IMG/VR virus record: IMGVR_UViG_3300042503_001868
Location: 1 to 27,692 of that record
Source: a virus
Direction: 5' to 3' (one strand)
DNA length: 27,692 bases
Shown: positions 11,660 through 27,666 of the stretch, in pieces
Layout of the letters: each line of letters starts with the position of its first letter
Numbering within the stretch: position 1 is the first letter of the stretch
Position numbers and translations under genes: made by a program
Notes under the pieces: generated by a model
Databases searched by the model: none
What the model was told of the DNA's origin: nothing
What the model saw: the letters and a program-made list of their open reading frames with translations, nothing else

Positions 11660-11669
11660 AAATTCTTGC

Positions 11670-11743
11670 TGGTGCGGATGGGACTCTCTCCCGCCTGGTT
11701 TCTTGCCTCCAGTCAAAGGGCAAGTGGCGAGCCTGAAATACCT
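11670..11743 (+). ncRNA. Structured leader before the glycan operon (riboswitch-like, unidentified)
   Basis: This GC-rich island in AT-rich surroundings lies between the endonuclease stop and a strong terminator. Helices visible: CTTGCC (11702-11707) with GGCAAG (11719-11724), a GGGA/TCCC stem near 11680-11692, and CCTGG/CCAG contacts that could cross them. A structured element followed by a terminator and then the first glycan gene is the layout of an attenuator or riboswitch. The wcaG RNA motif, known from cyanobacteria and cyanophages near exopolysaccharide genes, is a candidate. It is not a tRNA on either strand. Confidence 0.35.
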
Positions 11744-11773
11744 AAGGAGAGTTGCATAAACTCTCCTTTTTTT
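11744..11773 (+). terminator. Strong Rho-independent terminator before the glycan operon
   Basis: AAGGAGAGTT and AACTCTCCTT form a 10-bp stem around a 5-base loop, followed by TTTTT. It insulates the operon from upstream genes or acts as a regulated attenuator. Confidence 0.85.
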
Positions 11774-11780
11774 GTATAAT
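11752..11780 (+). promoter_or_regulatory. Probable promoter of the glycan operon
   Basis: TATAAT (11775-11780) is consensus. TTGCAT, 17 bases upstream (11752-11757), is a weak -35 lying in the terminator loop. The predicted start is about 20 bases before the first gene. Terminator and promoter overlap here just as at 27631-27666. Confidence 0.5.
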
Positions 11781-11809: not shown

Positions 11810-12610
11810 ATGATTGCAAATGATGATCTGGGAAATTTGGGTAGACTTGGAAACCAGATGTTTCAATATGCTGCCCTTCGTGGTCTTGCTGCAAAGCATA
11901 GTTATGAGTATTGTCTTCCTCCAAGACAAGTTGTCGCAACACGCGATATTAACTGTGCAAATTCAGATATTACATTATTTGAGTGTTTTAACATTCCTGA
12001 TGCTATAAGAAAAGTTACTAATTTCCCAAGAATTCAAGAGTCAACTTTTGGATTAGATCGAAATCTTTGGGAAAATTGTCCAGATAATATTAGCCTTTAT
12101 GGATATTTTCAGACTGAAAAATATTTTAAGCATATTGAAAATAAAATTCGTGAGGCGTTCACATTTGTTGATGATATTAAACAACCAACTGAAGAGGCAT
12201 TTAAGTCTAACTTTGGTGATATTGAAGTAATTGCCATTCACCTTCGTAGGGGTGATTATTTACAATATCCACATCATCCAGTTCAAACTCTTGAATATTA
12301 TGCTCAGGGATTGTCTCATATGCCAGAAGACATTCCAGTTATGATCTTTTCTGATGATATTGAGTGGTGTAAGGAGCAAGAAGTTTTTCAGGGAGATCGT
12401 TTTATCTTTGCAGAAGGAAACAGCACAGGCGTTGATCTTTGTCTCCAATCTCTTTGCGCATATCACATTATTGCTAATTCTTCATTCTCTTGGTGGGGTT
12501 CTTGGTTGGCAAAGAGTAAAAAAACAGTTGCCCCAAGTATTTGGTTTGCTGGACCAGATGCTTCTAAAGATCTCAGCAATCTTTATCTTCCAGATTGGAT
12601 TATAATTTAA
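11810..12610 (+). CDS. Alpha-1,2-fucosyltransferase-like enzyme (GT11)
   Basis: This encodes 266 residues. All the main GT11 motifs are present: GRLGNQMFQYA (residues 11-21), HLRRGDY (144-150) and SSFSWWGSWLA (224-234). GT11 enzymes move fucose from GDP-fucose to the O-2 of galactose, making H-antigen-like ends on O-antigens. The HxRRGD loop binds GDP-fucose. No signal or membrane segment is seen, so it acts in the cytoplasm at the membrane. First gene of the operon; the next starts 11 bases on. Codons are less AT-biased than in the following genes. No GDP-fucose synthesis genes are in the window, so the host or another phage locus must supply it. Confidence 0.88.
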   Translation: MIANDDLGNLGRLGNQMFQYAALRGLAAKHSYEYCLPPRQVVATRDINCANSDITLFECFNIPDAIRKVTNFPRIQESTFGLDRNLWENCPDNISLYGYFQTEKYFKHIENKIREAFTFVDDIKQPTEEAFKSNFGDIEVIAIHLRRGDYLQYPHHPVQTLEYYAQGLSHMPEDIPVMIFSDDIEWCKEQEVFQGDRFIFAEGNSTGVDLCLQSLCAYHIIANSSFSWWGSWLAKSKKTVAPSIWFAGPDASKDLSNLYLPDWIII

Positions 12611-12620
12611 AAAAATACTT

Positions 12621-13886
12621 ATGGAAAATGTCATTCCAAGTGTAATATATTTTCACATAGCAACGATTGGAAAATATCAAGAAATTTTTGATGAAATTTA
12701 TTCTGAAATAATACAATCTGGATTGATGGATAAAGTTAATTTGTTAAATCTTTCTGTGGTTGGAGGGGGTGAATTGACCGTTCAACCACACAGCAAGATT
12801 AAAATTCATAAACATCTTTATGTTGAAACTGGAGAATTTTTTACTTTAAATTTAATTAAAACATTTTCAGATTCAATAGATGAAAATTGTAAAATTTTAT
12901 ATGTTCATACAAAAGGAGTAACAACCCCAGATAATCCTTGTATAGATGATTGGCGTCAATATATGACTTATTTTAATGTTAATCAATATCAAAAGTGTTT
13001 TGATACATTGGAAGAATATGATTCTTGTGGAGTTGATTTGGTTAATGAACCTACTATTCATTATTCTGGAAATTTTTGGTGGGCAAATTCTTCTTATATT
13101 AAAAAACTTCCCACCATTGATGAAATTAAATTTCCCAAAACTCCCCCCATACTTTCTATACGCCATAACTGCGAATTTTGGATTGGCATGGGTGGTGGTA
13201 ATTTGAAAAGTCTTTGGAATTCTAATATAAACGTATATGAAAGACATCTACATAGATATGAAATATTAAAATATAAAAAAATGAAATTGATTGATATTTT
13301 GAAAGAATTTAATTTAGATTCTGATTTTTTTAATGAAGGTTATGATAAAGGAGGAACTGATAAAAATACTTGCCATAGTTATATTGAAAATGTATATGAA
13401 AAAGAATTTAAAACTTATAGAGAAAAGGAAATTGATTTATTAGAAATTGGAATAGAAACTGGTGGTTCTTTAAAATTATGGAAAGAATATTTTTTAAATT
13501 CTAAATCTATTATTGGCGTTGATATTTCTGATGAAAAAATAGATAAAAAATATAGGGATATTGCTGGCGTAACTATGCATTTTGGCGATGCTTATGATGA
13601 AAAGTTTTCTGAAAACATAGGAGAATTTGATATTATTATTGATGATGGACCGCATACATTGGAAAGTCAACTAAAATCTTTAGAATTATATTTGCCGAAA
13701 TTAAAGCAAAATGGACTTTTTGTAATTGAAGATGTGCAGAGTATTGAATGGTTTGATTTGTTGATTGATAAATCTGAAAAAGTATGCCAATCTATTGATA
13801 ATGACATTGAATATGTTGTTGAATGTATTGATCTTCGTGATAAAAAGGGGAGATGGGACGATCTATTATTTTTAATTAAAAGTTAA
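12621..13886 (+). CDS. Fusion of a glycosyltransferase-like domain and a SAM methyltransferase
   Basis: This encodes 421 residues. Residues 1 to about 215 form a GT-like domain of unassigned family (ILYVHTKGV near 92-100, NFWWANSSYI near 151-160, HNCEFWIGM near 182-190). Residues about 235-421 are a class I methyltransferase: LEIGIETGGS (274-283) is the SAM-binding loop, GVDIS (299-303) the acidic strand and IIDDGPHT (about 337-344) the active-site region, similar to macrocin/MycE-type sugar O-methyltransferases. One chain could add a sugar and methylate it, capping a glycan. It is very AT-rich. Confidence 0.75.
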   Translation: MENVIPSVIYFHIATIGKYQEIFDEIYSEIIQSGLMDKVNLLNLSVVGGGELTVQPHSKIKIHKHLYVETGEFFTLNLIKTFSDSIDENCKILYVHTKGVTTPDNPCIDDWRQYMTYFNVNQYQKCFDTLEEYDSCGVDLVNEPTIHYSGNFWWANSSYIKKLPTIDEIKFPKTPPILSIRHNCEFWIGMGGGNLKSLWNSNINVYERHLHRYEILKYKKMKLIDILKEFNLDSDFFNEGYDKGGTDKNTCHSYIENVYEKEFKTYREKEIDLLEIGIETGGSLKLWKEYFLNSKSIIGVDISDEKIDKKYRDIAGVTMHFGDAYDEKFSENIGEFDIIIDDGPHTLESQLKSLELYLPKLKQNGLFVIEDVQSIEWFDLLIDKSEKVCQSIDNDIEYVVECIDLRDKKGRWDDLLFLIKS

Positions 13887-13896
13887 TTGAAGAAAT

Positions 13897-14589
13897 ATGT
13901 TTGTAATTCCTTGTAAGTATAATCAAAAGTTTCCATTTATCATTGAATTAGTTGAATCTATAAGAAAACATCATCCTGTTGAAAAAATAGTTGTTGTTGA
14001 TAGTGATTCAAATGACAAAACTTATTTTTCTAGTTTAAGTAAGTATGATGTGATTGTTGAAGATGTTAAAAATCACAATTGGATGATTGGTGCATATTGG
14101 CATACTTATAAAAAGTATCCTGATGAGGAATTTTATTATTTTTTACACGACTCTATGGTGGTAAAAGATAATATGGATTACTTAAAGAAAAAAGATTTAA
14201 CAATTTTATGTTATTTTGATAGAACAATAGGAAACTTTAATTCATGGGGTGAAAATATAAATTTAAACTCAAACTATGAATACGTTTTTTCCGGTCTTGG
14301 GTGTTATGGTCCTATATTTTTTTGTAAAAATAAAGTAATGAAAAAAATGCTTGATATGGGAGCAGATAAATTTTTACCATCTAATAAAGAGGAAACGGGA
14401 TATTGTGAAGGTTGTTATGGATTTTTTTTAGAAGAACAGGGATATGATTTAAAAGAATGCTCTTTATATGGAGATGTTCTTTATAATGAAAGTCCATTAG
14501 GACTATCGGGAACTTTTCCACATAATACAAATTGGCAATTCCCGATAGAAAAATTTTATGCTTCGCACATTGATCTCAAAAGACTATGA
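13897..14589 (+). CDS. Glycosyltransferase-like protein (GT-A type)
   Basis: This encodes 230 residues. The N-terminus has a GT-A-like start (MFVIPCKYNQ, then IVVVDSDSND at 31-40), and HDS at 84-86 is in the usual place of a metal-binding DXD variant. The family is not recognised. The stop overlaps the next ATG (ATGA), so it is coupled to it. It is AT-rich like its neighbour upstream. A retained nucleotide-sugar transferase role is inferred from fold hints and context. Confidence 0.6.
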   Translation: MFVIPCKYNQKFPFIIELVESIRKHHPVEKIVVVDSDSNDKTYFSSLSKYDVIVEDVKNHNWMIGAYWHTYKKYPDEEFYYFLHDSMVVKDNMDYLKKKDLTILCYFDRTIGNFNSWGENINLNSNYEYVFSGLGCYGPIFFCKNKVMKKMLDMGADKFLPSNKEETGYCEGCYGFFLEEQGYDLKECSLYGDVLYNESPLGLSGTFPHNTNWQFPIEKFYASHIDLKRL

Positions 14590-15335
14590 AATCTAAAATT
14601 CCCTTATTCATTTACACACATTCTGATTGTTCATTTATTTGGAGTGCTCTCATTGGGCAGATAAACGAACATGTAAAAGATATTGAAATACATTTTGCAT
14701 ACAATAATACAATTGATGATATTGAAAAGTATGGTATTCCTAAAAGTTGGATTAGGCACACTTATACTGATAATATTGTATGGACAAAAAGAATCAATTC
14801 TATTTTAAAAGAAATTGATTGTGAATATCTTCTTTTTATACATGAAGACTGGATTCCTACTGGGATAGTTTCTGGAAAAATTTTAGATGAAATGTATAAT
14901 TTTATGAGCAAAAATTCTTGGGATTATTTGCTAAGTTATGCTCATCATAGTGTGGTTGAATCTCAGGATGGTATTTTTACTGGTTATGATGACTATTATT
15001 TTTACAAAGAAGATAGTCATATTTTTCAACCAGCTATATGGAAAAAAACTGTATTTCAAGAGTTTACTGATAAGTTAGATAAAGCAAAAAACCAGAATGA
15101 AGATCAAGATTGTTTATCGTTTATGAGAAGTAAGAATACTTATAGTATTCAAAATGCTAAAACAGTTAGGGAATATAGGACAACAAACTCTATTATATTC
15201 CCCCATATGCACGCTCTTTCCGAAGGTCTTTGGAATTTCACAAAGTATCCAACATTGAAGTGTTTGTTAGACGGTTATGGGATAGACACCGATAGTAGGG
15301 GTATACATACATGGTGGGAATTGGATACCCAGTAA
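14586..15335 (+). CDS. Glycosyltransferase-like protein
   Basis: This encodes 249 residues. The start PLFIYTHSD is followed by a beta/alpha region, then LLFIHEDWIP (82-91), where HED replaces the DXD motif. Trp and Tyr are abundant towards the C-terminus. It is coupled to the gene before by a 4-base overlap. A family could not be named; a sugar transferase is the best guess from position and the E/D motif at the end of a hydrophobic strand. Confidence 0.55.
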   Translation: MKSKIPLFIYTHSDCSFIWSALIGQINEHVKDIEIHFAYNNTIDDIEKYGIPKSWIRHTYTDNIVWTKRINSILKEIDCEYLLFIHEDWIPTGIVSGKILDEMYNFMSKNSWDYLLSYAHHSVVESQDGIFTGYDDYYFYKEDSHIFQPAIWKKTVFQEFTDKLDKAKNQNEDQDCLSFMRSKNTYSIQNAKTVREYRTTNSIIFPHMHALSEGLWNFTKYPTLKCLLDGYGIDTDSRGIHTWWELDTQ

Positions 15336-15361
15336 ATATTAAATTCATTTAAGCGTACATT

Positions 15362-16318
15362 ATGATTACTATTAATTATCTTGCTCATGACCGTTCCACT
15401 AATTTTTGGAATATAACAAAATATTTTTTAAATCGTATTAAAGAAGAAAATAAAAGAGAAATACGAGTTAATATTTTATCCACTCATACTGCTGATTTTG
15501 AGAGACTTGATGGTATTGAGACTAATATAGTTTTATTCAACTCTGGATATAACTATATGGCAAAAGTTGAATATGCTTTATCCCAAGATACTAAGTATTC
15601 CGTAAAACTTGATGAAGATTGTTTCATTGGAAATCATGTATGGGATTACATGATTGAAAATGTTAAAGTGCTTGATTCTGATGATAACTTTATTTTGGCT
15701 CCGTTACTTTCTAATAACATCCCTTTGGTTGATCGATTTATTGAGTCTTTTGTAACTGATGAATCTGTAAAAGAACAGATTTATTCTGACTTTTTGAAAA
15801 GAAATATGCCAAATGGTCTGTGGGGTGTTGATTATTCACCTTTGAATGAATACACACTACAAGCAAGATCTTGGGATTCTAACGCTTTCTATGAGGGGGT
15901 TAGTAAAATTAATCATTATTATAAGGGTATTCATCCTATTCGTATTTGTGCAGAAGCGCAGATTATTTTGAACGAATATATTATTAGTAATTTTGATAGG
16001 ATAACTGATAAACAAGACTATTCTATTGAAGAATTTACTTGCCCATATTACACAAATAGTGTTTTTATGATTAAAACTGAAGATTGGAGGAAGGTTGTAA
16101 TGACTCCTGGTTCGGATGGATTTGATGAGGTTCCTTTCAATAACTTTAAAAATACACATAATAAAAAAACTTTTTATGTTGGAAATGGATTTTCAATTCA
16201 TTTGACTTATAATACTATTCATAATTCCAGTTACAGTTGCTGGAATATTGGTATGGCAAACGGTCTTGAATATGAGATTAATTTGTTAAAAGAAATCAAT
16301 TCTAAATTAGGTTATTGA
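15362..16318 (+). CDS. Glycosyltransferase-like protein
   Basis: This encodes 318 residues. It begins ITINYLAHDRSTN, has SVKLDEDCF (80-87) with a DED motif typical of GT-A metal sites, and ends with a GNGFSIHLTY stretch rich in aromatic residues. It has no membrane segment. It probably adds a sugar to the same glycan as its neighbours. Gaps to the adjacent genes are 26 and 4 bases. Family unassigned. Confidence 0.6.
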   Translation: MITINYLAHDRSTNFWNITKYFLNRIKEENKREIRVNILSTHTADFERLDGIETNIVLFNSGYNYMAKVEYALSQDTKYSVKLDEDCFIGNHVWDYMIENVKVLDSDDNFILAPLLSNNIPLVDRFIESFVTDESVKEQIYSDFLKRNMPNGLWGVDYSPLNEYTLQARSWDSNAFYEGVSKINHYYKGIHPIRICAEAQIILNEYIISNFDRITDKQDYSIEEFTCPYYTNSVFMIKTEDWRKVVMTPGSDGFDEVPFNNFKNTHNKKTFYVGNGFSIHLTYNTIHNSSYSCWNIGMANGLEYEINLLKEINSKLGY

Positions 16319-16322
16319 AATT

Positions 16323-16661
16323 ATGAAACATAAAGATGATTTAATCAAATACTTTAAAGTATTTTCTGATAAAAATATTGATGAACTTTCAGAAATGTTC
16401 TCTAATGATATAGAACTAAAAGACTGGAATATTTTTGCTAGCGGTAAGAAAAATGTTGTCGCTGCGAATTGTGATATTTTTAATAGTGTTAATACTATTC
16501 ATGTAACTCCTATTAAGTTCTATTCAAATTCCGAAACTTCTTATGCTGTTCAGATCTTCATACTTGTCAATGGTGAAGAAAAATTGGATGTAATTGACGT
16601 TATCAAATTTAATAGTAATGGATTAATCAATTCTATTGTTGCCTTTAAATTGGAAGGTTGA
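16323..16661 (+). CDS. NTF2/SnoaL-like small protein
   Basis: This encodes 112 residues with the size and pattern of the cone-shaped NTF2-like fold: N-terminal helices (DDLIKYFKVFSDKNID), an FSNDIELKDW strand start, then alternating strands ending in VAFKLEG. Such proteins are often small isomerases, dehydratases or partner subunits. It sits 4 bases after one gene, and its stop abuts the cupin gene; in sugar clusters NTF2-like proteins travel with nucleotidyltransferases. Substrate unknown. Confidence 0.65.
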   Translation: MKHKDDLIKYFKVFSDKNIDELSEMFSNDIELKDWNIFASGKKNVVAANCDIFNSVNTIHVTPIKFYSNSETSYAVQIFILVNGEEKLDVIDVIKFNSNGLINSIVAFKLEG

Positions 16662-16663
16662 AA

Positions 16664-17005
16664 ATGGAAATACACAATAAACCTTGGGGTTCCTACACTA
16701 ATCTTCTAGATGAAGAATATACAAAGGTGAAGAAGATCATTGTTAAACCTGGAGAGTCTCCTAGTTATCAATATCACTTTAAAAGGAGTGAAATATGGGT
16801 AATTGTGAAGGGAACTGCTCAAGTAAAAATAGATGATGTTTTTAATTATTATAGAGTAGGTGACATTATTGTTATTCCAAAAGAGGCAAAGCATCAAGTT
16901 AAAAATATTGGGGAAGATGATTTAGTATTTGTTGAAGTTCAATTGGGCGAATACTTTGGTGAGGATGACATTGTAAGATTGGATGACAAATATGGCAGAG
17001 TATAA
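16664..17005 (+). CDS. Cupin, phosphomannose-isomerase-like
   Basis: ATG 16664, with GGAAGG at 16652-16657, gives 113 residues; a TTG at 16658 is less likely. The single cupin barrel has the NKPWGSY start and a QYHF...E set, then DIIVIPKEAKHQV, all as in the C-terminal cupin of bifunctional mannose-6-phosphate isomerase/GDP-mannose pyrophosphorylase. It may isomerise a sugar phosphate or only bind one. Its C-terminus overlaps the next gene. Confidence 0.75.
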   Translation: MEIHNKPWGSYTNLLDEEYTKVKKIIVKPGESPSYQYHFKRSEIWVIVKGTAQVKIDDVFNYYRVGDIIVIPKEAKHQVKNIGEDDLVFVEVQLGEYFGEDDIVRLDDKYGRV

Positions 17006-18548
17006 AGTTTTACTTACAACTAGTGGTCTTGGATCTAGACTTGGTAATTTAACTAAGTTCACAAATAAGAGTTTAGTTCGGGTTGGAGATAAACCTGTTA
17101 TATCTCATATCATTGAGACTTATCCACAAGATGTTGAGTTTATTGTAACTCTTGGGCATTATGGGTCTCATGTAAAACAGTATCTAACTCTTGCACATAG
17201 CGACCGAAACATTCAATTTGTTGAGGTTGATAATTATACTGGTGATGGAAGTAGTTTACTTTATTCCATCTCTTTATGTGAAGAGTATTTGCAATGTCCA
17301 TTTGTTTTTCATGCTTGTGATACTGTTCTTCCTAACAACTACATTTCAAATATAGATTTTTCTACTAATTGGTCTATCGGTGGTACCGGAGATAACAGTC
17401 AATCATATAGAACTATTAATTGTGTTAATGGAAAAATTGCTTCCATTAATGAGAAAGGTGAACAAAACTTTGACTTTGTTTATGTTGGAGTTTCTGGTAT
17501 TAGACAGTATGATGTATTTTGGGAAATTTGTAAAAATATTCTCCAAAAAGTAAGTACCAGTGATCTAAGTGATTGCCATGTTATTCGTAAAATGAATGAT
17601 TTTTCTGTCTTATCAGTTGATGAGTGGTATGATATTGGAAATATTGATGCACTCAAAAGAACTAGATCAAAAATAAAGGGGACAATTCATGTTCTTGATA
17701 AAGAAGATGAAAATATCTTCATCTTTGATGACTTTGTAATTAAGTTCTTTCATAATAAAAAAATTTGTTATGACCGAGTTTTGAGAACTAAAAGTTTAGA
17801 TAACTTAGTGCCTAAACTTTTAGATAGTACTGAAAACTTTTATAAGTACGAATATATTAATGCCGATTTAATGTCAGATGTTGTAGATAGGGATAAGTTT
17901 TCAAAATTATTAAACTGGGCGAATGATAATTTATGGGTAGAAAGAGAGCAAGAAAATTTTTATAATAATGCCCTGTCATTTTATAAAGATAAAACTTTAT
18001 TGAGGATTGAAAAATTTTTAGATAAACATAATTTAACTGATAATGTTGATTGCATTAATGGTTTAAAAGTTCCTAGAATTAAAGACCTTGTATCTAAAAT
18101 AAATTTCAAAGATATTATTGGACCAAATCCAACAGGATTTCATGGCGATTTTATCTTGGACAATATTTTAATCTCAGATTCATTTACATTAATTGATTGG
18201 AGACAGGATTTTAATGGTATAATTGAATCAGGAGATATGAATTATGATCTGGCGAAATTAAATCATAATCTTATTCTTAATCATGAAATGCTACATAACA
18301 ATTATTTTAAGATAGATTTTTCTAAACAAATAAATTGTGATGTTTATATTAAAAAATCTTTGATTGATTGTAAAAATATTCTTAGGAAATTTTGTGAAGA
18401 TAAAAACATAAACTTTAATAATATTGAAATTCTCACATCTTTAATATGGTTGAATATGTCTCCACTTCACGAACATCCTCTTGATATGTTTTTATATTAT
18501 TTTGGAAAGTATAACCTTTATCTTAATATTCAGGAGAATTTTAAATGA
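16992..18548 (+). CDS. Nucleotidyltransferase fused to a choline/aminoglycoside-type kinase
   Basis: ATG 16992 gives 518 residues; ATG 16983 is also in frame. Residues 1 to about 225 are a sugar-phosphate nucleotidyltransferase: SGLGSRLGNLTKFTNKSL is the NTP-binding loop with Asn in place of the usual Pro. Residues about 235-518 are an APH/choline-kinase-like domain with HGDFILDN (His384, Asp386, Asn391) and LIDWRQ (Asp402). The pair resembles a LicC plus LicA arrangement: phosphorylate a small alcohol or sugar, then activate it as an NDP derivative. The substrate is not readable from sequence. The TGA overlaps the next ATG. Confidence 0.75.
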   Translation: MAEYKVLLTTSGLGSRLGNLTKFTNKSLVRVGDKPVISHIIETYPQDVEFIVTLGHYGSHVKQYLTLAHSDRNIQFVEVDNYTGDGSSLLYSISLCEEYLQCPFVFHACDTVLPNNYISNIDFSTNWSIGGTGDNSQSYRTINCVNGKIASINEKGEQNFDFVYVGVSGIRQYDVFWEICKNILQKVSTSDLSDCHVIRKMNDFSVLSVDEWYDIGNIDALKRTRSKIKGTIHVLDKEDENIFIFDDFVIKFFHNKKICYDRVLRTKSLDNLVPKLLDSTENFYKYEYINADLMSDVVDRDKFSKLLNWANDNLWVEREQENFYNNALSFYKDKTLLRIEKFLDKHNLTDNVDCINGLKVPRIKDLVSKINFKDIIGPNPTGFHGDFILDNILISDSFTLIDWRQDFNGIIESGDMNYDLAKLNHNLILNHEMLHNNYFKIDFSKQINCDVYIKKSLIDCKNILRKFCEDKNINFNNIEILTSLIWLNMSPLHEHPLDMFLYYFGKYNLYLNIQENFK

Positions 18549-19123
18549 CTACTAATAATGCAGCAGGTCAGCATCAACACAATCTGCTAGAAGAGCAGTT
18601 TTTATATGTGTCTTCAATAATTAATCCAGAATATAAACATATTCTCGAATTCGGTGTTTATAGTGGAAGAACCATTGATATAATTAGAAAAAAATTTAAT
18701 GATTCTTACAAAGTTTTTGGTTTCGATTCATTTGAAGGATTGCCTGAGGATTGGACAAATACACCGTGTTATAAGGGATTTTTTAGTACAGATGGTATTG
18801 TTCCTAATATTGATGGCGTAAAATTTTATAAAGGTTGGTTTGAAGATACTATTCCACAATATTTGGAAGAGGTAGATACTATTAGTCTTCTTCACATTGA
18901 TTGTGATTTATATTCTTCTACTAAAACTATTTTTAATTATTTACATCCATACATTAAAAGTGGAACAATTATTGTTTTTGATGAGTGGATTTATAATTAC
19001 GATCCTAATTGTAATGATCATGAACAAAAAGCTTTTTATGAATATGTTGATAAGTATAATGTTAAATTTGAGTTTATTGATTTTCAAAACCATCCCGAAA
19101 GAAAGATTGTAAAAATCCTATGA
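18545..19123 (+). CDS. TylF/macrocin-type O-methyltransferase
   Basis: This encodes 192 residues. The SAM site ILEFGVYSGRT (33-43), GFDSFEGLPE (59-68) and LLHIDCDLYSST (115-126) are hallmarks of the TylF family, which methylates sugar hydroxyls with a metal ion held by the Asp residues. It would methylate a sugar of the glycan. It overlaps both neighbours by 4 bases, so it is tightly coupled. Confidence 0.85.
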   Translation: MTTNNAAGQHQHNLLEEQFLYVSSIINPEYKHILEFGVYSGRTIDIIRKKFNDSYKVFGFDSFEGLPEDWTNTPCYKGFFSTDGIVPNIDGVKFYKGWFEDTIPQYLEEVDTISLLHIDCDLYSSTKTIFNYLHPYIKSGTIIVFDEWIYNYDPNCNDHEQKAFYEYVDKYNVKFEFIDFQNHPERKIVKIL

Positions 19124-20118: not shown

Positions 20119-20467
20119 TCTTGATGATGTTATTTGCTATCGTTCTAGCAAGTACGAACATCTGGGACCTAACAAGTATGATTATTGTGAACCAGATCAA
20201 AGTGTTATTGATCTGGTTAATTCTTTGCATAATGATGGTCATAAAATAGTCATATATACTGCAAGAGGAATGTCCCAATTCAAAGGGAATGTGGCACTTA
20301 TTTACAGTGAACTATATTCTAAAACTATTCAACAATTAAATCGTTGGGGATTGAAGTACGATCAACTTGTAATGGGTAAAATTCATTATGATTTATTGAT
20401 CGATGATAAAGTATTAAATTCTTTTAATATCACAAAGGATACTGTTATAAATTTTTTGTATGAATAA
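20090..20467 (+). CDS. HAD-like phosphatase (capsule-biosynthesis type)
   Basis: This encodes 125 residues. AFDLDDVIC supplies the HAD nucleophile Asp10 and Asp12, IYTARG (55-60) is motif II with Thr57, and LLIDDK near 106-111 is motif IV. It lacks a cap domain. Small HADs of this type occur in capsule and LPS loci and remove phosphate from sugar phosphates. It overlaps the aldolase-like gene by 29 bases and the next gene by 8. Confidence 0.75.
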   Translation: MSKLKTIAFDLDDVICYRSSKYEHLGPNKYDYCEPDQSVIDLVNSLHNDGHKIVIYTARGMSQFKGNVALIYSELYSKTIQQLNRWGLKYDQLVMGKIHYDLLIDDKVLNSFNITKDTVINFLYE

Positions 20468-21830
20468 GTTAGTAATTTTTGATCTTGATGGAGTTCTTGT
20501 TGATAGTAGGGAGCAACATTATGAAGCACTCAATCGTGCTTTGAAAAATGTTTCATATGATTATATTATAAGTCGGGAAGAGCACCTCAGTGTTTATGAT
20601 GGTCTCCCTACTTCAAAAAAGCTTGCAATGCTCACTGAAAAAAAGGGACTTCCAGTAGATAAGCATCAGCAAATATGGGAAGACAAGCAAAAAGAAACTC
20701 TTAAACTTTTTTCTGATTTAGAGCACGACTATGAATTAATGCATTACTTTCAGCAACTTAAACACAGAGGATATCAAGTTGCAGTTGCAAGTAATAGTAT
20801 TCGTAATACTGTCAAATTAGTTTTGCTTCGATTGGGTTTATTAGAGTTTGTTGATTACTGTGTTAGTAATGAAGATGTAACTCGAAATAAACCATTTCCA
20901 GAAATGTATTGGAAATGTATGACCGCTTGTAATGCACTTCCAAAAGACACTATAATTTTTGAAGATAGTCATATTGGTAGGCAAGGTGCTTTAGATAGTA
21001 AGTCACATCTAATAGCAATAGAAAATAGATATGACTTAAATCAAGAAAAAATAGATAAAGTTTTTAAAACTTTTGCATCTAAAAAACTTACAGCAGTACC
21101 CTGGAAGTCTGATAAAATGAATGTTCTTATTCCTATGGCAGGTGCTGGTAGTCGCTTTGCGAATGCTGGATATACCTTTCCTAAACCACTGATTGAAGTG
21201 AATGGTAAACCAATGATTCAAGTGGTAGTTGAGAATCTTAATATTGAAGCAAATTATACTTTTATTGTTCAGAAGGAACATTATGAGAAGTATAGTCTTC
21301 AATATCTTCTAAACTTGATTGCTCCTAACTGCAATATTGTTCAGGTGGATGGTGTTACTGAAGGTGCTGCTTGCACTACTCTACTTGCCAAAGAGTTCAT
21401 TAATAATGATTCTCCACTTGTAATGGCAAACTCTGACCAGTTTGTGGAGTGGAACAGTAATGAATGTCTCTATGCATTTAATGCCGATGGTATTGATGGT
21501 GGTATTGTTAGTTTCAAGGCAACTCATCCTAAGTGGTCCTATGCCAAGGTTGGTGAGGATGGTTTTGTATCTGAAGTTGCTGAGAAAAAACCAATCAGTG
21601 ATAATGCAACGGTTGGTATCTATTTTTGGAAGAAAGGTTCTGACTATGTGAAATATGCCGAACAAATGATTGAGAAAAATATCAGAACTAATAATGAGTT
21701 CTATGTCTGCCCAGTCTTCAATGAAGCAATTCAAGATGGAAAAAAAATTCGAATCAAAGATATTGAAAAGATGTGGGGAATTGGAACTCCTGAAGATCTT
21801 AATTATTTCTTGGAGCATTATAAGCAATGA
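20460..21830 (+). CDS. Fusion of a HAD phosphatase/mutase and a nucleotidyltransferase
   Basis: This encodes 456 residues. Residues 1 to about 215 are a HAD with a helical cap: FDLDGVLVDS (Asp8, Asp10), VASNS and FEDSHIGRQGA motifs, of the beta-phosphoglucomutase type. From Met220 a nucleotidyltransferase follows: LIPMAGAGSRFANAG, FPKPLIEVNGKPM and MANSDQF. A fused pair could dephosphorylate or isomerise a sugar phosphate and make an NDP-sugar. The internal ATG (21117) might allow separate expression. The stop overlaps the next start (ATGA). Confidence 0.8.
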   Translation: MNKLVIFDLDGVLVDSREQHYEALNRALKNVSYDYIISREEHLSVYDGLPTSKKLAMLTEKKGLPVDKHQQIWEDKQKETLKLFSDLEHDYELMHYFQQLKHRGYQVAVASNSIRNTVKLVLLRLGLLEFVDYCVSNEDVTRNKPFPEMYWKCMTACNALPKDTIIFEDSHIGRQGALDSKSHLIAIENRYDLNQEKIDKVFKTFASKKLTAVPWKSDKMNVLIPMAGAGSRFANAGYTFPKPLIEVNGKPMIQVVVENLNIEANYTFIVQKEHYEKYSLQYLLNLIAPNCNIVQVDGVTEGAACTTLLAKEFINNDSPLVMANSDQFVEWNSNECLYAFNADGIDGGIVSFKATHPKWSYAKVGEDGFVSEVAEKKPISDNATVGIYFWKKGSDYVKYAEQMIEKNIRTNNEFYVCPVFNEAIQDGKKIRIKDIEKMWGIGTPEDLNYFLEHYKQ

Positions 21831-22291
21831 AACTTATAGCACATCGAGGTAATATTGATGGATCAAATCCTTTGGAAGAGAATAACCCAGAATATCTGGA
21901 AAAAGCACTAATAGAAGGATTCAACGTTGAAATTGATATTAGATATGATACGTATGATAGAAAATTTTATCTTGGTCACGATGAACCACAATATCATGTA
22001 GATTGGTTTTGGTTATCTAAGTACAAAGATTTTTTATGGATTCATTGTAAAAATATTGAATCACTCTATGAGTTTTCTTATGGAACCGAAGGGTTCAATT
22101 ATTTTTGGCACCAAGAGGATGATTTTACTTTGACGAGTAAAAATTATATTTGGACTTATCCTGGTAAAACTTATACTCCAAAATCAGTAATTGTTATGCC
22201 AGAATGGAATATGTCAGTAGAGGTATTTACTGATCTAAAAGCATTTAATTGTCATGGAATTTGTAGTGATTATGCCAAACGATTATTGTAG
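21827..22291 (+). CDS. Short glycerophosphodiester-phosphodiesterase-like protein
   Basis: This encodes 154 residues. The N-terminal half has the GDPD pattern: AHRGN (His6, Arg7), EIDIR (Glu35, Asp37) and LGHD (His51). Usual GDPD enzymes have about 240 or more residues, so this is a shortened variant with a WTYPGK and CSDYA end. It may cleave or transfer a glycerophosphoryl or similar phosphodiester group on the glycan; the function in such a short form is uncertain. Confidence 0.65.
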   Translation: MKLIAHRGNIDGSNPLEENNPEYLEKALIEGFNVEIDIRYDTYDRKFYLGHDEPQYHVDWFWLSKYKDFLWIHCKNIESLYEFSYGTEGFNYFWHQEDDFTLTSKNYIWTYPGKTYTPKSVIVMPEWNMSVEVFTDLKAFNCHGICSDYAKRLL

Positions 22292-22304
22292 GAATATTTA
22301 AATT

Positions 22305-23030
22305 ATGGATTTTACCTTTGGTATTATTACTAATGGAACGGAAGATGACAAAATTAATGAAATTATCGATAGCATTGAAGTTCAAAATATTCCAAATTAT
22401 GAAATTATAGTCGTTGGAAATTCTAAGGTTATCAGAAATAAAACTGAAGTAATAAAGTTTGACGAAACTATAAAAAAATCTTGGATTACTAAGAAAAAAA
22501 ATATTGTTACTAATTGTGCTAGTTTTGAAAACATAGTATATCTGCACGATTACATTAAATTTGATAATGATTGGTATACTGGATTTTTGAAGTTTGGTAA
22601 TAATTTTGATTTATGTATGACTAAAATTGTAAATCCGGATGAAACAAGATATCGTGATTGGTGTCTTTGTATGTGGAACGATCCTAGGAATGTGAGTACT
22701 TATGGTGAGAGGAATGAATTAATTAGCAGAAGTGTTGAACCTGGAATGAAGTGTCTTCTTCCTTATGATGAAGAAAGATTCACAAAATACATGTATTTTT
22801 CTGGGGCCTATTGGGTTTCTAAAAAAAATGTTATGATAGAGTTTCCTTTGAATGATGAATTGGTTTGGGGAGAAGGTGAAGATGTTATATGGTCTATTGC
22901 AGTTAGAGAAAATTATGAATTTAAAATGAATAAGTATTCCAAAGTAAAATTATTAAAGTACAAAGATCCAATATATAATATTGCTGATCATAGTACAATC
23001 GAAGAATTATCTAAAAAGTTGTTAAAGTAA
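22305..23030 (+). CDS. Glycosyltransferase-like protein (GT2 type)
   Basis: This encodes 241 residues. The GT-A start TFGIITNGTEDD and YEIIVVGNS (32-40) resemble GT2. VYLHDYIKF (78-86) is in the DXD position, FSGAYWVSKK and WGEGEDVIWS fit the acceptor and ED motifs. It lies 13 bases after the previous gene and 17 before the next. Substrate unknown. Confidence 0.65.
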   Translation: MDFTFGIITNGTEDDKINEIIDSIEVQNIPNYEIIVVGNSKVIRNKTEVIKFDETIKKSWITKKKNIVTNCASFENIVYLHDYIKFDNDWYTGFLKFGNNFDLCMTKIVNPDETRYRDWCLCMWNDPRNVSTYGERNELISRSVEPGMKCLLPYDEERFTKYMYFSGAYWVSKKNVMIEFPLNDELVWGEGEDVIWSIAVRENYEFKMNKYSKVKLLKYKDPIYNIADHSTIEELSKKLLK

Positions 23031-23047
23031 ATTTGTAAATTATTTTT

Positions 23048-23833
23048 ATGGAAAATTTTAATGGTTGGGACATTAACCCAAATGATGCAAAAGAATATAT
23101 TGATATTTGTAATAAAATTTTAGAAGATGATGAAGTCTTTTCTAATTTTAAAGTATTGCCAGAATATAATGTTATTCTTGAGCACGTTGATTTTGAGTTG
23201 GGGCAAAAATATTTTGACCATATTCAAGAGGTTGGTAAAGAAATTTATGATGAAAATCTGGATCAATTTTTAGAAAATGATTTGATTGGAAATCCTAAAC
23301 AATTTGTTTATGGTGATGGTAAAATATCACCAACTACTCTCAGATATATTAAAAATTGTTTAGACTTGAGTTCAATCTGCGAAAATGAAGAGATTTCCAA
23401 AGTAGTTGAAATTGGTGGTGGATATGGTGGTTTATGTAAAACCTTAAGTGTTTTATGTGATTTTGATGAATATATAAATGTCGATCTTTCTGAGGGACTA
23501 AAAGTTCAAGAAAAATATTTAAAAAACTTTTCAAAGATATACTCAAAAATTAAATTTATTCCGTGTGAGCGATTAGATAGTATTTCTGATATAGATCTTT
23601 TAATTAGTAATTATTCTCTTTCAGAACTTGATATTCAATCTCAATTAAATTATTATGATAAAGTAATCAAAAATAGTAAGATAGTCTATATTACATATAA
23701 TTTAATGGTTGATAATGTTTATGATAATTATAGTTGTATAGTTTCAAAATTAAAGGATGATGGATTTACTTTTTATAATAATTATTCAGAATGTGGAAAT
23801 ACTAAAAATATAATCATAGTTGCTAAAAAATAA
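23048..23833 (+). CDS. Putative sugar O-methyltransferase
   Basis: This encodes 261 residues. An N-terminal helical part (1-110) precedes a class I SAM fold with VVEIGGGYGGLC (119-130). Then come the acidic strand INVDLSEG and ISNYSLSEL near 195-203, as in the family annotated as putative sugar O-methyltransferases in polysaccharide clusters. It would methylate a residue of the glycan. It is very AT-rich. Confidence 0.75.
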   Translation: MENFNGWDINPNDAKEYIDICNKILEDDEVFSNFKVLPEYNVILEHVDFELGQKYFDHIQEVGKEIYDENLDQFLENDLIGNPKQFVYGDGKISPTTLRYIKNCLDLSSICENEEISKVVEIGGGYGGLCKTLSVLCDFDEYINVDLSEGLKVQEKYLKNFSKIYSKIKFIPCERLDSISDIDLLISNYSLSELDIQSQLNYYDKVIKNSKIVYITYNLMVDNVYDNYSCIVSKLKDDGFTFYNNYSECGNTKNIIIVAKK

Positions 23834-23848
23834 TTACAGTAAATCGAT

Positions 23849-24544
23849 ATGAAAATCTGCATCTTAACTATTGCAACAAACAAGTATATTCAGTTTGTTG
23901 AAAGACTCCTTGATAACATTGAAGAGAACTTTCTCAACGGACACGATATTGAGTGTTTGCTTTTCACAGACCACGAAGTAGAAGCATCTGACAATGTAAG
24001 AGTTTGTCAAATTGACCACGAACCTTGGCCAATGCCTACGTTGAAGAGATACAATTACTTCGTAAAAGAAAAGGAGTTTATCTCTCAGTTTGATTATTGT
24101 TTCTACTTCGATGTGGATATGGGTCTGGTAGATAAGGTTGGTGATGAGGTTCTAAGAGACCTGGTTGCCACTCAGCACCCCTACCAGTCCTTCTATCCAA
24201 AGGAGCAGAGGTCTTATGATAGAAACCCACAGTCGCTGGCATACGTGCCTGTGGGTGGGGAAGGTGAGCACTATTACGCTGGTGGATTTAATGGGGGTTC
24301 TACAAAGAGATTTCTTGAAATGGCAGAGGTTCTTGCAGATCGTGTAACCAGAGATCTTGAAAATGGTGTGATTGCCTTATGGCACGATGAATCTCAAATG
24401 AATCGGTATTTAATTGATAATCCACCAACTTTGAGTCTGACACCTTCATATTGTTTTGCAGAAGAACAAATGGGAAATGTAGAGTATCCATTTGCTCCTA
24501 AAATTATTGCCTTGAAGAAGAATCACAATGAACTTAGATCTTAG
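23849..24544 (+). CDS. GT6 glycosyltransferase (ABO blood-group type)
   Basis: This encodes 231 residues. The GT6 signature set is complete: ICILTIATNKY (3-13), YFDVDMG (86-92) with a DXD metal site, YYAGGFNGGS (142-151), WHDESQMNRYL (178-188), SLTPSYCF and a C-terminal KNHNELR. GT6 enzymes add alpha-1,3-linked GalNAc or Gal, the ABO type often to fucosylated galactose. GT6 has been reported in the cyanophage P-SSM2. The GT11 gene heads the same operon, so a blood-group-like end is possible. The base composition is less AT-rich than upstream. It overlaps the next gene by 17 bases. Confidence 0.85.
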   Translation: MKICILTIATNKYIQFVERLLDNIEENFLNGHDIECLLFTDHEVEASDNVRVCQIDHEPWPMPTLKRYNYFVKEKEFISQFDYCFYFDVDMGLVDKVGDEVLRDLVATQHPYQSFYPKEQRSYDRNPQSLAYVPVGGEGEHYYAGGFNGGSTKRFLEMAEVLADRVTRDLENGVIALWHDESQMNRYLIDNPPTLSLTPSYCFAEEQMGNVEYPFAPKIIALKKNHNELRS

Positions 24545-25172
24545 AGAAATACCTGCTCTTTACATGAATTTGGGGCAGCATACTGAAAAGAATGAGAGTA
24601 TGCAAACCCTTCTGAAAGAATGTGGATTTAAACATATCATTCGTGTAGAAGGAGTTGCTCGCCCAGATAATCCAGTTGCTGGATGTTCTTCTGCTCATCA
24701 CAAGGGTCTATCTGAGATAGATCCTCCCTTTATTTTATTTGAGGACGACTGCGTAATCAAGAACTTTCGTCCAGAGATTGAAGTTCCAGATGATGCTGAT
24801 GCAATATATCTTGGTATTTCATCTTGGGGAAGAATGAATGGTCATTCTGGACCTTATGTTCAATATGAGCATATTAAAGATGATCTCTATCGTGTGCATA
24901 ATATGCTTGGGGGACATTCAGTATTGTATCTTACTGATGAGTATGTTAGAATGTGCCAAAGGATAACCTACCATGCTGGTTATGTAATTGAAGATTATCA
25001 AGATATTGGATTTGCTGAGATTCAGCGTTGGTTTAATGTTTATACTTTTGATGATCCATTTTTCTTCCAAACAAGTGGGTATCATGGAACTGTCAATCCA
25101 TTGACAAGTTATCCCACTGAAGAATGTTTTAACTTTAATAAAAACTATTTTTTACCTGAGAGAGTTGTATGA
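24528..25172 (+). CDS. GT25-like glycosyltransferase
   Basis: This encodes 214 residues. PALYMNLGQHTEKNE (9-23) corresponds to the GT25 start, CSSAHHKGL to the conserved SH-containing helix and ILFEDDC (69-75) to the metal site. GT25 enzymes add galactose or other sugars in LPS outer cores. It overlaps both neighbours, so it is translationally coupled. Confidence 0.7.
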   Translation: MNLDLREIPALYMNLGQHTEKNESMQTLLKECGFKHIIRVEGVARPDNPVAGCSSAHHKGLSEIDPPFILFEDDCVIKNFRPEIEVPDDADAIYLGISSWGRMNGHSGPYVQYEHIKDDLYRVHNMLGGHSVLYLTDEYVRMCQRITYHAGYVIEDYQDIGFAEIQRWFNVYTFDDPFFFQTSGYHGTVNPLTSYPTEECFNFNKNYFLPERVV

Positions 25173-26068
25173 CTAAATCACTAGTTACTGGTGGTGCTGG
25201 ATTTATTGGTTCTAATCTTGTAGACCGCCTTCTTGAAATGGGTCATGAAGTTGTGGTAATTGATAATGAGTATTCTGATGCTCATGATCATTTTTATTGG
25301 AATGATAAAGCACAAAATTACAAATACGATATCCGTGATTATGAAAACACTCGCCCTCTTTATGATGGTGTAGATTATGTGTTTCATATTGCGGCAGAAG
25401 CACGTATTCAACCTGCCATTGAAAATCCTATTGAAGCAGTCAGCATCAACTCTGTTGGAACAGTAACTGTTCTTCAATGTGCCCGTGAAGCAGGTGTGAA
25501 GCGTGTGATGTATTCTTCTACTTCTTCTGGATATGGGTTGAATGAAACTCCTAATGTTGAGACTCAATCTGATGACTGTTTGAATCCTTATTCAGTTTCG
25601 AAAGTTAATGGGGAAAAACTGTGTAAGATGTATACAGATCTTTTTGGTCTTCAAACAGTTTGTTTCCGTTACTTTAACGTATATGGAGAACGTCAACCTC
25701 TTAGGGGTCAATACGCTCCTGTGATTGGTATTTTCCTACGCCAACGTTCCGCAGGAGATCCATTGACAATTGTTGGTGATGGAAATCAACGTCGTGACTT
25801 TACCTATGTTGGTGATGTTGTAAGTGCGAATATTATGGCAGCAATTTCAAATCCTGACCCAGAAGCATTTGGTCAAGTTTATAATGTTGGAACTGGTAAT
25901 AACTATTCCATTAATCAAATTGCTGAAATGTTTAATCATGAAACAGTTAATATTGCTCCTCGTCTAGGTGAGGCGATGATAAGTCTTGCTAACAATCAGA
26001 AACTTTGCAATACCTTTGGTTGGAAACCATCAATGAAACTTGAAGACTGGCTTGTTGCACAACTATGA
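25169..26068 (+). CDS. NAD-dependent sugar epimerase/dehydratase (extended SDR)
   Basis: This encodes 299 residues. The Rossmann loop TGGAGFIGS (7-15) binds NAD(H), SSTSS (116-120) and Tyr141-x3-Lys145 (PYSVSK) form the catalytic site, and FRYFNVYG and RRDFTYVGDV are substrate-side motifs. It is typical of UDP-glucose 4-epimerase or NDP-sugar dehydratase enzymes of about 310 residues, slightly short here. It would prepare an NDP-hexose, such as UDP-Gal or UDP-GalNAc, for the nearby GT6/GT25 enzymes. Exact substrate not readable. Confidence 0.88.
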   Translation: MTKSLVTGGAGFIGSNLVDRLLEMGHEVVVIDNEYSDAHDHFYWNDKAQNYKYDIRDYENTRPLYDGVDYVFHIAAEARIQPAIENPIEAVSINSVGTVTVLQCAREAGVKRVMYSSTSSGYGLNETPNVETQSDDCLNPYSVSKVNGEKLCKMYTDLFGLQTVCFRYFNVYGERQPLRGQYAPVIGIFLRQRSAGDPLTIVGDGNQRRDFTYVGDVVSANIMAAISNPDPEAFGQVYNVGTGNNYSINQIAEMFNHETVNIAPRLGEAMISLANNQKLCNTFGWKPSMKLEDWLVAQL

Positions 26069-26826
26069 TTCACATTTTTACTTCGGTCGTTAATCGTCCA
26101 GACTTTGTAGTTCTTCAGGATAAACTTTTTAAAAAATTTTTGAAGAACAAATATACATTTCATATTGTTGATGATTCTATAGATCCACAAATAACAGAGC
26201 AGTTTAAAAATATCTGTTCTGTCGATGGATATGAATATTATAAAACTCCAACGGATTTGGAGCACAGTGATCCATCAACAAAAGTTGGTAATGTAATTCA
26301 ATGGGCATTTGATAAAATTGTAAAAAAGAAATGTTCTTCTGATGTAGTTTTTTGGTCAGATTCTGATATGTTTCTGATTGATGATTTTGATATTGAAGAA
26401 TATGTTTCTGATTGTGTGGTCGCAGGTCTTCCACAAGTTAGAGGACACATTAAGTATATGTGGAATGGCATTATGTTTTTCAATATGCCAAAACTTATGG
26501 AATTGGACTCAGATATTAAATTTAATATCGATTATGTTGATGGGCATATGCTTGATACTGGTGGTCAGACCTATCATTATTTTAAAAGAAATAAAATTGA
26601 TATGAAGGTAACTGATAAAGAATCTCCAGAGTATCCAACTCATTACAACGATATTGATTTGCAAAAAGATGCTGGCGGATATAATTTTGAGTTACATCTG
26701 GATGGTAAGTTCCTTCATTATCGTGCTGCTACTAATTGGCATTCTAATTGGAGAGGGTCTGAAGATCCTCTTGCCAATAAAACAAAAGTCTTCAATCAAA
26801 TTATTGAAAGTATTCTTTCCGAATAA
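26065..26826 (+). CDS. Glycosyltransferase-like protein with DSD motif
   Basis: This encodes 253 residues. IHIFTSVVNRPDF at the start, VVFWSDSDMF (94-103) as DXD, GIMFFNM and an HYRAATNWHSNW end give a GT-A-like layout. It starts in the stop of the epimerase gene, and its own TAA shares its last base with the next ATG. Family unassigned. Confidence 0.65.
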   Translation: MIHIFTSVVNRPDFVVLQDKLFKKFLKNKYTFHIVDDSIDPQITEQFKNICSVDGYEYYKTPTDLEHSDPSTKVGNVIQWAFDKIVKKKCSSDVVFWSDSDMFLIDDFDIEEYVSDCVVAGLPQVRGHIKYMWNGIMFFNMPKLMELDSDIKFNIDYVDGHMLDTGGQTYHYFKRNKIDMKVTDKESPEYPTHYNDIDLQKDAGGYNFELHLDGKFLHYRAATNWHSNWRGSEDPLANKTKVFNQIIESILSE

Positions 26827-27620
26827 TGGATAAAAATAAAGCAGCATATAAACTCAAGGGTCTTCCTCCCATTTATTATCTGAATCTGGATGAACAACCA
26901 GAAAGAGCAGAGTATATGGAAGGTCAATTTAAGTATTGGGAAATTGAAGATTATACTCGTATCTCTGCCTATGATGGTAGGGATGGTAGAGACTTGGGGG
27001 AGATTCTTAAAGGTCGTTATCCTGATATGATGTCTTCTGGTGAGGTAGGTTGTGTAACTTCGCATCTGAAGGCACTGAAGCACTTCTTAGAGACTTCTGA
27101 TTCTCCTTGTGCCCTGATTATGGAGGATGATTGCGATTTGGATACTGTAAGACATTGGGGATTTACCTGGAAAGATTTTTTCTGTAAAGTTCCTTATGCT
27201 TATGATGTAGTCCAACTTGCAATTATTAATCCAGCGCAAGTTCATATGAAGTTACATCGTAGATTTGTAAATGATTTTTCTACTGCTTGCTATTTGATTA
27301 CAAGAAATCATGCACAGAAACTAATTAATTTTCATGTTCGTGGTGATAAGTATAAGATTGATAATGGAGTTAAACCCAGAGCAGTTGCAGATGATTTGAT
27401 TTATAATTCTGGAAATACTTACGCAATTCCTTTATTTCTTTATAAGATTGAACTAGGTTCTTCTATTCATACAGATCATATTGATATTTTTCATAAATCA
27501 AGTTATGAAGGTTTGTGGAATTTTTGGAAAAACGATTCTTCAAATATTGAAGATTGGAAACCAATTTTTGATTATGATCCGTACTTTGGGACACTACCGC
27601 CAGGATTTGAGGGTAAATGA
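26826..27620 (+). CDS. GT25-family glycosyltransferase
   Basis: This encodes 264 residues with the best GT25 match in the window: IYYLNLDEQPERA (16-28), RISAYDGRDG, GEVGCVTSHLKAL (72-84) and LIMEDDCD (97-104). GT25 enzymes are LPS core or O-antigen galactosyl/glucosyltransferases. It is the last gene of the operon, with a terminator 10 bases after the stop. Confidence 0.85.
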   Translation: MDKNKAAYKLKGLPPIYYLNLDEQPERAEYMEGQFKYWEIEDYTRISAYDGRDGRDLGEILKGRYPDMMSSGEVGCVTSHLKALKHFLETSDSPCALIMEDDCDLDTVRHWGFTWKDFFCKVPYAYDVVQLAIINPAQVHMKLHRRFVNDFSTACYLITRNHAQKLINFHVRGDKYKIDNGVKPRAVADDLIYNSGNTYAIPLFLYKIELGSSIHTDHIDIFHKSSYEGLWNFWKNDSSNIEDWKPIFDYDPYFGTLPPGFEGK

Positions 27621-27630
27621 ATGAGGAGGG

Positions 27631-27655
27631 GGGGTGCTTGACACCCCTTTCTTTT
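27631..27655 (+). terminator. Terminator of the glycan operon
   Basis: GGGGTG (27631-27636) and CACCCC (27642-27647) pair around CTTGA, followed by TTTCTTTTT. The loop and right arm also carry the -35 box of the next promoter. Confidence 0.75.
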
Positions 27656-27666
27656 TGCTATATAAT
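27638..27666 (+). promoter_or_regulatory. Consensus sigma70-type promoter at the right edge
   Basis: TTGACA (27638-27643), a 17-base spacer and TATAAT (27661-27666): an exact consensus. It drives whatever lies beyond the window. The 17-base repeat starts 3 bases after the -10, so it spans the predicted start point. Confidence 0.8.

Follow-up and report, generated by a model that had tools for sequence, protein, structure and literature searches.

A glycan-synthesis operon was analysed in the IMG/VR virus record IMGVR_UViG_3300042503_001868, a linear record of 27,692 bases, the whole of which is referred to here as the window. The operon occupies positions 11810-27620, consists of 20 forward genes, and very probably builds a complex sugar chain. 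It is real, conserved, and under selection, and it forms the glycan island of a T4-like cyanophage from fresh water, a relative of Synechococcus phage S-SRM01. Judged by enzyme family, its most conserved part pairs the same two families that operate in human A/B blood-group synthesis, namely glycosyltransferase (GT) families GT11 and GT6. The reading that we prefer, with confidence balanced between belief and doubt, is that cytosolic phage enzymes would re-tailor the surface glycan of the host early in infection, using the export machinery of the host.

The interval 11810-27620 is tiled by exactly 20 forward open reading frames (ORFs) of at least 110 amino acids, with intergenic gaps of -29 to +26 bp, and the nearly gapless run of 20 forward genes described in the initial annotation therefore stands. 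All 20 ORFs are intact, contrary to the concern raised there that most genes might be frameshifted. The reverse strand of the same interval holds three ORFs of at least 110 amino acids (50 base shuffles gave a mean of 0.06 and a maximum of 1). Two intrinsic terminators bound the operon, at 11744-11768 and 27628-27650 (features are on the forward strand unless stated otherwise). A twin cassette in another metagenome (L004) shows 98–100% amino acid identity to the window operon, and two cassettes from other metagenomes (L005 and L006) show about 74–95%, but with a different GT11 (55%). Because these cassettes recur in other metagenomes, the operon is not an assembly artefact. The gene content is roughly as first claimed, comprising GT11, GT6, GT25, a GT25-fold protein, a protein with a DXD motif (26065), three methyltransferase domains, two nucleotidyltransferases, an epimerase-like protein, an aldolase-fold protein, HAD phosphatases, and a GDPD-like protein; less firm are the methyltransferase at 23048, which is weak, and about five GT-like proteins that are only weakly assignable. 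The earlier account had missed the wcaG RNA at 11633-11738, the two bounding terminators, and the identity of one GT as a GT6 protein of the ABO-transferase family.

The genomic setting is that of a known kind of cyanophage lipopolysaccharide (LPS) cluster. Parts of the upstream 11.8 kb match S-SRM01, a phage from a Singapore reservoir, and the last operon gene shares 75% DNA identity with PSSM2_271 of Prochlorococcus phage P-SSM2. In both of these phages the glycan cluster occupies the same place, between two small ORFs on the left and hli, ferredoxin, and psbA on the right. This left border, the PSSM2_254/255-type small ORFs of the hli-proximal LPS cluster of Kyanoviridae, is present in the window as two small conserved ORFs of 71 and 81 amino acids (10311-10768), which directly precede the cassette in most loci; the first shows 87% amino acid identity to S-SRM01 gp293, and identity to PSSM2_254/255 is 57–58%. 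On the right side, the record stops at 27692, just past a terminator and a promoter, and the relatives L006 and L040 carry a PhotoRC-II RNA downstream. LPS clusters near hli03 were described by Sullivan et al. (2010; PMC3037559), and T4-GC 260 (GT11), 265 (epimerase), and 266 (GT25), all listed in that paper, are present in the window. Thus the proposed relationship of this glycan-building operon to the P-SSM2 LPS cluster is borne out by the common locus, border, and last genes, and membership of this kind of cluster is not in itself new.

The first gene (11810-12610) encodes a GT11 protein of the alpha-1,2-fucosyltransferase family (PF01531, 92 bits; phrog_2644, E 1e-100), in which the HxRRxD motif takes the form HxRRGD (HLRRGDY). 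Toward the other end lies the GT6 gene (23849-24544; PF03414, 133 bits), the product of which carries a DXD motif (D88, D90) and an AGG donor triad; its best solved relatives are BoGT6a (PDB 4ayj, E 6e-38) and the ABO transferases (E 5e-35). At least 97% of 63 distinct phage sequences retain the DXD, YYAGGFNGG, and HDE residues, and the AGG triad and HDE are common to phage GT6 and BoGT6a, an enzyme that forms A-antigen-like products from UDP-GalNAc on 2'-fucosyllactose (PMC3961637). Most bacterial GT6 proteins have NXN in place of DXD, and the presence of GT6 in two cyanophages has been noted previously (PMC3961637). Four further genes complete this end of the operon: a conserved core gene for a GT25-fold (GT-A) protein (24528-25172; AF2 pTM 0.86; Foldseek matches to Mimivirus R655, E 6e-6, and COLGALT1, E 3e-5); a UDP-sugar C4-epimerase-like SDR (25169-26068; PF01370, 191 bits), which resembles UDP-Glc and UDP-GlcNAc C4-epimerases (PDB 4zrm, WbpP, WbgU) and scores below the NCBIfam galE cutoff; a probable GT-A glycosyltransferase with a D-x-D that is invariant in an alignment of 13 sequences (26065-26826; no PDB match); and GT25, the conserved last gene of the island (26826-27620; PF01755, 45 bits; 73% amino acid identity to PSSM2_271). 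Two features of an H-plus-A/B pathway, GT11 with its motif and GT6 with its catalytic motifs, are present in the window, and by analogy the conserved core resembles the pathway of Escherichia coli O86. The sugars, linkages, and acceptor of the core are what we infer from these families.

Gene order was read in 86 related loci, on contigs gathered mostly via the GT6 gene. Their common frame consists of the small ORFs, often GMD and FCL, GT11, a variable block, GT6, the GT25-fold protein, the epimerase, often the DXD protein, and GT25. Among the 86 loci, GT11 is found in 74, the GT25-fold gene in 81, an epimerase-type gene in 81 (a count that includes weaker SDR matches), and GT25 in 67. GMD and FCL, which serve GDP-fucose synthesis, behave as an all-or-none pair: where their place is visible (46 loci), both occur in 27, neither in 19, and one alone in none. 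Against the NCBIfam models, GMD exceeds the cutoff in both isolates and FCL falls just short of it; the two genes are absent from the window operon. Within the window, the GC content is 0.35–0.40 in core genes and 0.25–0.32 in most middle genes, and one related locus (L061) is a mosaic in which blocks of 88–98% identity are interspersed with unrelated genes, as would be expected of an exchanged cassette. Of the annotated phage records, 71 contain GT6 and 103 contain GT11, cyanophages accounting for nearly all of them, and a joined GT11-GT6 query found both at one place in 61. Because about 45 of these 61 records are close strains of one species, the number of independent GT11-GT6 lineages is about ten. 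A second type of phage GT6 lies directly after GT11 in S-CAM9 (L168, 9816-10532) and B23 (L169, 9789-10511); here QGC replaces AGG (YWQGCLWGG and YLQGCLWGG, respectively, vs YYAGGFNGG), and this type possibly uses another donor sugar. GT6 homologs with 42–44% amino acid identity are also found in uncultured phage records of 635–642 kb (LR745206, 425992-426660; LR756502, 444234-444905).

Between GT11 and GT6, the window carries a middle block of 14 genes. It begins with a two-domain protein composed of an N-terminal half without assignment and a methyltransferase (12621-13886; PF13578/PF13847; phrog_21658), a weak GT2-like protein (13897-14589; PF00535, E 0.004, below cutoff), two soluble proteins that are possibly GTs (14586-15335, no family match; 15362-16318, no convincing match), and a SnoaL-like small protein (16323-16661; PF12680, E 3e-4, below cutoff). 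These are followed by a cupin with a mannose-6-P isomerase type II domain (16658-17005; PF01050, 104 bits), a LicC-like nucleotidyltransferase fused to an APH/choline-kinase-like domain (16983-18548), a TylF-type O-methyltransferase (18545-19123; PF05711, 52 bits), a GatZ/KbaZ-related class II aldolase-fold protein (19120-20118), a HAD phosphatase (20090-20467; PF08645; phrog_1238), and a HAD phosphatase fused to a sugar-1-P nucleotidyltransferase (20460-21830; PF13419, 98 bits; PF00483, 46 bits). The block ends with a GDPD-like small hydrolase (21827-22291; IAHRGN motif and invariant residues; phrog_34507; no PDB match), a possible GT (22305-23030; no family match), and the weak methyltransferase-like protein (23048-23833; PF08242, E 0.024).

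The nucleotidyltransferase half of the fusion at 16983 is nearest LicC (PDB 1jyk, E 7e-8), and its partner domain gives a weak APH match with conserved HGDF..DN and LIDWRQD; among phage records, this protein is matched only by a single-cell marine virus. The aldolase-like protein has a confidently predicted class II aldolase-type barrel fold (AF2 pTM 0.82; Foldseek 4to8, E 7e-8), and its distant homologs, which match PF08013, are of the GatZ/KbaZ family. PDB profile searches with the aldolase-like, GDPD-like, and 26065 proteins returned nothing useful. The trio of cupin, nucleotidyltransferase-kinase, and aldolase-like genes recurs in about ten cellular genomes from several phyla, of which, among those annotated, two carry KdsC-like HAD phosphatases and one a flippase; no characterised product was found in these cellular neighbourhoods. 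Together with the phosphatase, the trio probably forms a module for a rare activated sugar or alcohol.

Sullivan et al. (2010) left as a question whether cyanophage LPS genes are functional or are stuffer DNA, that is, genes that merely fill the head of large-genome cyanophages without a function (PMC3037559). The expanded genomes of P-SSM2 and S-SSM7 do owe most of their extra size to large LPS clusters (PMC3037559), and the contents of such clusters differ greatly among phages. However, the median pairwise ratio of nonsynonymous to synonymous substitution (dN/dS) stays well under 1 in each of the eleven glycan gene families measured, lying at 0.07–0.20 in nine of them and at 0.33 and 0.38 in two, as estimated by a simple counting method from pairs that are not independent and with paralogs pooled in some families. 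The medians are 0.067 for GT6, 0.077–0.11 for middle-module genes (nucleotidyltransferase-kinase 0.077, aldolase-like 0.095), 0.10 for GMD, 0.13 for the epimerase, 0.18 for GT25, 0.20 for FCL, 0.33 for the GT25-fold gene, and 0.38 for GT11. Since dN/dS is low and the catalytic motifs are intact, and with all 20 ORFs whole and GMD and FCL kept as a pair, the stuffer explanation is rejected as very improbable, and the selection data presented here answer the 2010 question in favor of function.

At the head of the operon lies a wcaG RNA (RF01761; 11633-11738; cmscan 81.6 bits against a gathering threshold of 42, E 5e-14), a cis-regulatory candidate that also heads the operon in L006, L013, L031, and L040. 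It is followed by an intrinsic terminator, a hairpin of 10 pairs with a T-run (11744-11768), and by a promoter-like TTGCAT-17-TATAAT element (11752-11780), the weak -35 of which lies in the terminator loop; some relatives have TTGACA or TTTACA there. In 20 of 21 distinct heads a hairpin of 9–12 bp with a T-run follows the wcaG RNA (shuffled rate 0.010); a promoter-like element is present in all 21 by a loose criterion (shuffles 0.36), and the -35 lies inside the hairpin loop in 19 of the 21. A terminator (27628-27650) ends the operon, and a perfect TTGACA-17-TATAAT promoter for the next unit (27638-27666) has its -35 in the terminator loop. Both composites (11744-11780 and 27628-27666) share one design, in which the -35 sits in the terminator loop and the T-run in the spacer before TATAAT. 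A GIY-YIG-like homing endonuclease ORF, recognized by motif and without a Pfam match above threshold, abuts the wcaG RNA (11096-11659), and the twin L004 lacks this insertion. Its last codons supply the wcaG 5' arm GCAAGA (11641-11646), which pairs with TCTTGC (11664-11669); in relatives this helix is made from other sequences (CTTGC/GCAAG, CCAATT/AATTGG).

The wcaG RNA was proposed in 2010 as a cis-regulatory RNA, possibly a riboswitch, of cyanophage exopolysaccharide genes (PMC2864571), and the hairpin that follows it may be an attenuator or simply a unit boundary. The first option, a riboswitch-like attenuator of read-through into the operon, would be compatible with any reading of operon function and accords with the near-constant hairpin in the distinct heads. 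However, a transcript starting at the -10 element would exclude the wcaG RNA, L031 has a promoter-like element but no hairpin, and a similar composite closes the window operon without a wcaG RNA; because of this last point in particular, the attenuator is retained merely as a rival, possible though on balance doubtful.

The initial annotation also held that the gene set looked complete enough to act by itself, and this part did not survive. With its many GTs, sugar-nucleotide genes, and methyltransferases in one operon, the island does recall a self-sufficient O-antigen operon that exports its own polysaccharide. Bacterial O-antigen clusters encode a flippase, a polymerase, and an initiating enzyme. 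However, no family match to Wzx, Wzy, a ligase, an ABC exporter, or an initiating phosphoglycosyltransferase was found among the operon proteins, none of the 20 has a transmembrane segment by hydropathy, and GMD and FCL are absent; in 31 other bordered cassettes, some of them near-duplicates, there is at most an occasional single transmembrane segment. A self-sufficient operon is hardly credible and was rejected, as the membrane and export parts are absent from the window. Without export and initiating parts, the operon must rely on carriers of the host for building its glycan, unless it modifies targets in the cytosol, virion proteins for example.

The preferred re-tailoring of the host surface would proceed as follows. 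Soluble cytosolic enzymes would synthesize sugar nucleotides and transfer sugars, probably at an early stage of infection. GT25-type enzymes would build or extend the chain, GT11 would fucosylate a galactose-type residue in alpha-1,2 linkage (H-type), the C4-epimerase-like enzyme would make UDP-Gal or UDP-GalNAc, and GT6 would add alpha-1,3-GalNAc or Gal (A/B-type) to complete a blood-group-like cap, while the swappable middle module would contribute a rare activated sugar and O-methyl groups. Because the operon encodes no initiating enzyme, flippase, polymerase, or ligase, the phage would take lipid-linked or lipid A-core intermediates of the host as its substrates and leave export of the product to the host. 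The infected-cell surface would thereby be re-tailored, the likeliest benefit being to block co-infection and re-adsorption of progeny. Late-promoter motifs lie 26–34 bases ahead of five genes elsewhere in the window, but no operon gene has one; this absence, the weak early-type promoter, and the occurrence of GT11 and GT6 in bacterial surface glycan together lean toward the host surface as the target.

The same soluble enzymes, with no exporter encoded, could instead glycosylate tail fibres, collagen-like proteins, or capsid proteins of new virions. In Mimivirus and other giant viruses, the genes behind virion glycans, which code for GTs, sugar-nucleotide enzymes, and methyltransferases, are clustered (PMC9614988). 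The core protein at 24528 is modelled with a fold like that of Mimivirus R655 and the human collagen galactosyltransferase, and P-SSM2 carries a collagen-like protein, PSSM2_296, beside its tail fibre genes (L003, 35609-36373). However, bacterial surface glycan provides known examples of GT11/GT6 pairs (PMC4202792, PMC2846917), the operon genes have no late-promoter motif ahead of them, a scan of the loci for collagen-like repeats gave a hit in P-SSM2 alone, and no cyanophage virion glycan was found in the literature searched. The window itself holds no structural genes. Virion decoration is a serious but rather unlikely alternative, and re-tailoring of the host surface is preferred over it. 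Some relatives are annotated as "glucosyltransferase" or, beside GT11, as "DNA beta-glucosyltransferase," which would suit modification of the phage's own DNA bases, similar to the glucosylation of T4 DNA. GT6, GT11, and GT25 are, however, not DNA glucosyltransferase families, and according to a review there is no evidence for either hydroxymethylcytosine or glycosylated DNA in cyanomyoviruses (PMC2984593); on both grounds DNA glycosylation was rejected, its probability being next to nil.

Several points weigh against re-tailoring of the host surface by an H-plus-A/B pathway. The function of the operon and the substrates of GT11 and GT6 are deduced from sequence. One GT11 enzyme, HhFT2, is an alpha-1,3-fucosyltransferase (PMC4202792), and the dN/dS of GT11, the highest of all at 0.38, is consistent with changing specificity. 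GT25 families include protein (collagen) glycosyltransferases. Since the window lacks GMD and FCL, GDP-fucose must come from the host or from another phage locus. Finally, the -35 at the operon head is weak (TTGCAT), and overlapping genes leave little room for internal promoters, so that the absence of late motifs is only mild evidence of timing.

Some features upstream of the operon deserve mention. An SLH-OprB outer-membrane porin (5789-7273; Pfam OprB, 48 bits; SLH, 37 bits) shows 75% amino acid identity to the S-SRM01 porin, its only full-length counterpart among phage isolate records; together with the glycan operon, this porin could alter the host surface. Seven tRNA genes lie at 5095-10234, upstream of the island, and a small hydrophobic ORF of 75 amino acids (MSKTCILRYIG...; 10815-11042) is kept at the same place in L006. 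In addition, positions 1490-3663 on the minus strand hold a block of small-protein genes, some with signal-peptide-like starts, that resembles function-unassigned genes of P-SSM2 and DSL-LC02/03.

What is new here is the conserved GT11-GT6 core with a variable middle, the dN/dS case against stuffer DNA, the wcaG-terminator-promoter head, and the probable rare-sugar module. The core predicts an alpha-1,2-fucosylated glycan capped with alpha-1,3-GalNAc or Gal, a product within reach of lectin, antibody, and mass-spectrometric detection. Should the host surface prove to be the target, viruses that rank among the most abundant on Earth would be altering the surfaces of major photosynthetic cells as they infect them, and both co-infection and grazing would be affected. 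We put forward as a speculative whole, rather unlikely in full, that abundant T4-like cyanophages carry an A/B-type capping pathway (GDP-fucose synthesis, H-type fucosyltransferase, ABO-family transferase, and epimerase) without export genes, that this pathway would recode the host surface early through the host exporter with the wcaG RNA as a switch, and that the middle cassette would be exchanged like a serotype.

Among known systems, the closest are the clusters of P-SSM2 (PSSM2_257-271) and S-SRM01 (gp296-312), which share with the window their place, the small border genes, and GT25 as the last gene. P-SSM2 also has GT11, GT6 (81% amino acid identity), the GT25-fold gene (60%), the epimerase (59%), and GT25 (73%). 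Unlike these clusters, the window lacks GMD and FCL, and its middle block of 14 genes is mostly richer in AT. For Synechococcus phage S-SCSM1, GMD, GDP-fucose synthase, alpha-1,2-fucosyltransferase, and the wcaG RNA have been reported; in the parts of that report consulted, no GT6 partner or pathway reading was found, and the gene set differs from that of the window (PMC9602691). No paper in the literature searched reads the cyanophage GT11-GT6 set as an H-plus-A/B-type pathway. Giant viruses (Mimivirus, chlorovirus) also encode GTs, sugar-nucleotide enzymes, and methyltransferases, as the phage operon does, but their glycan is known on the virion (PMC9614988), whereas the product of the phage operon may lie on the host surface or on the virion. 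In Helicobacter mustelae, a fucosyltransferase gene adjoins a GT6 gene (HMU12060/HMU12050) and blood group A is carried on LPS (PMC2846917); unlike the phage operon, that locus consists of cellular genes working with the cell's own LPS machinery. E. coli O86 uses GT11 (WbwK) and GT6 (WbnI) to make an H- and then a B-type determinant, and the phage has the same family pair (PMC4202792). However, the phage operon lacks the flippase, polymerase, and initiating enzyme, and its GT6 carries the AGG triad, like that of the GalNAc-transferring BoGT6a.

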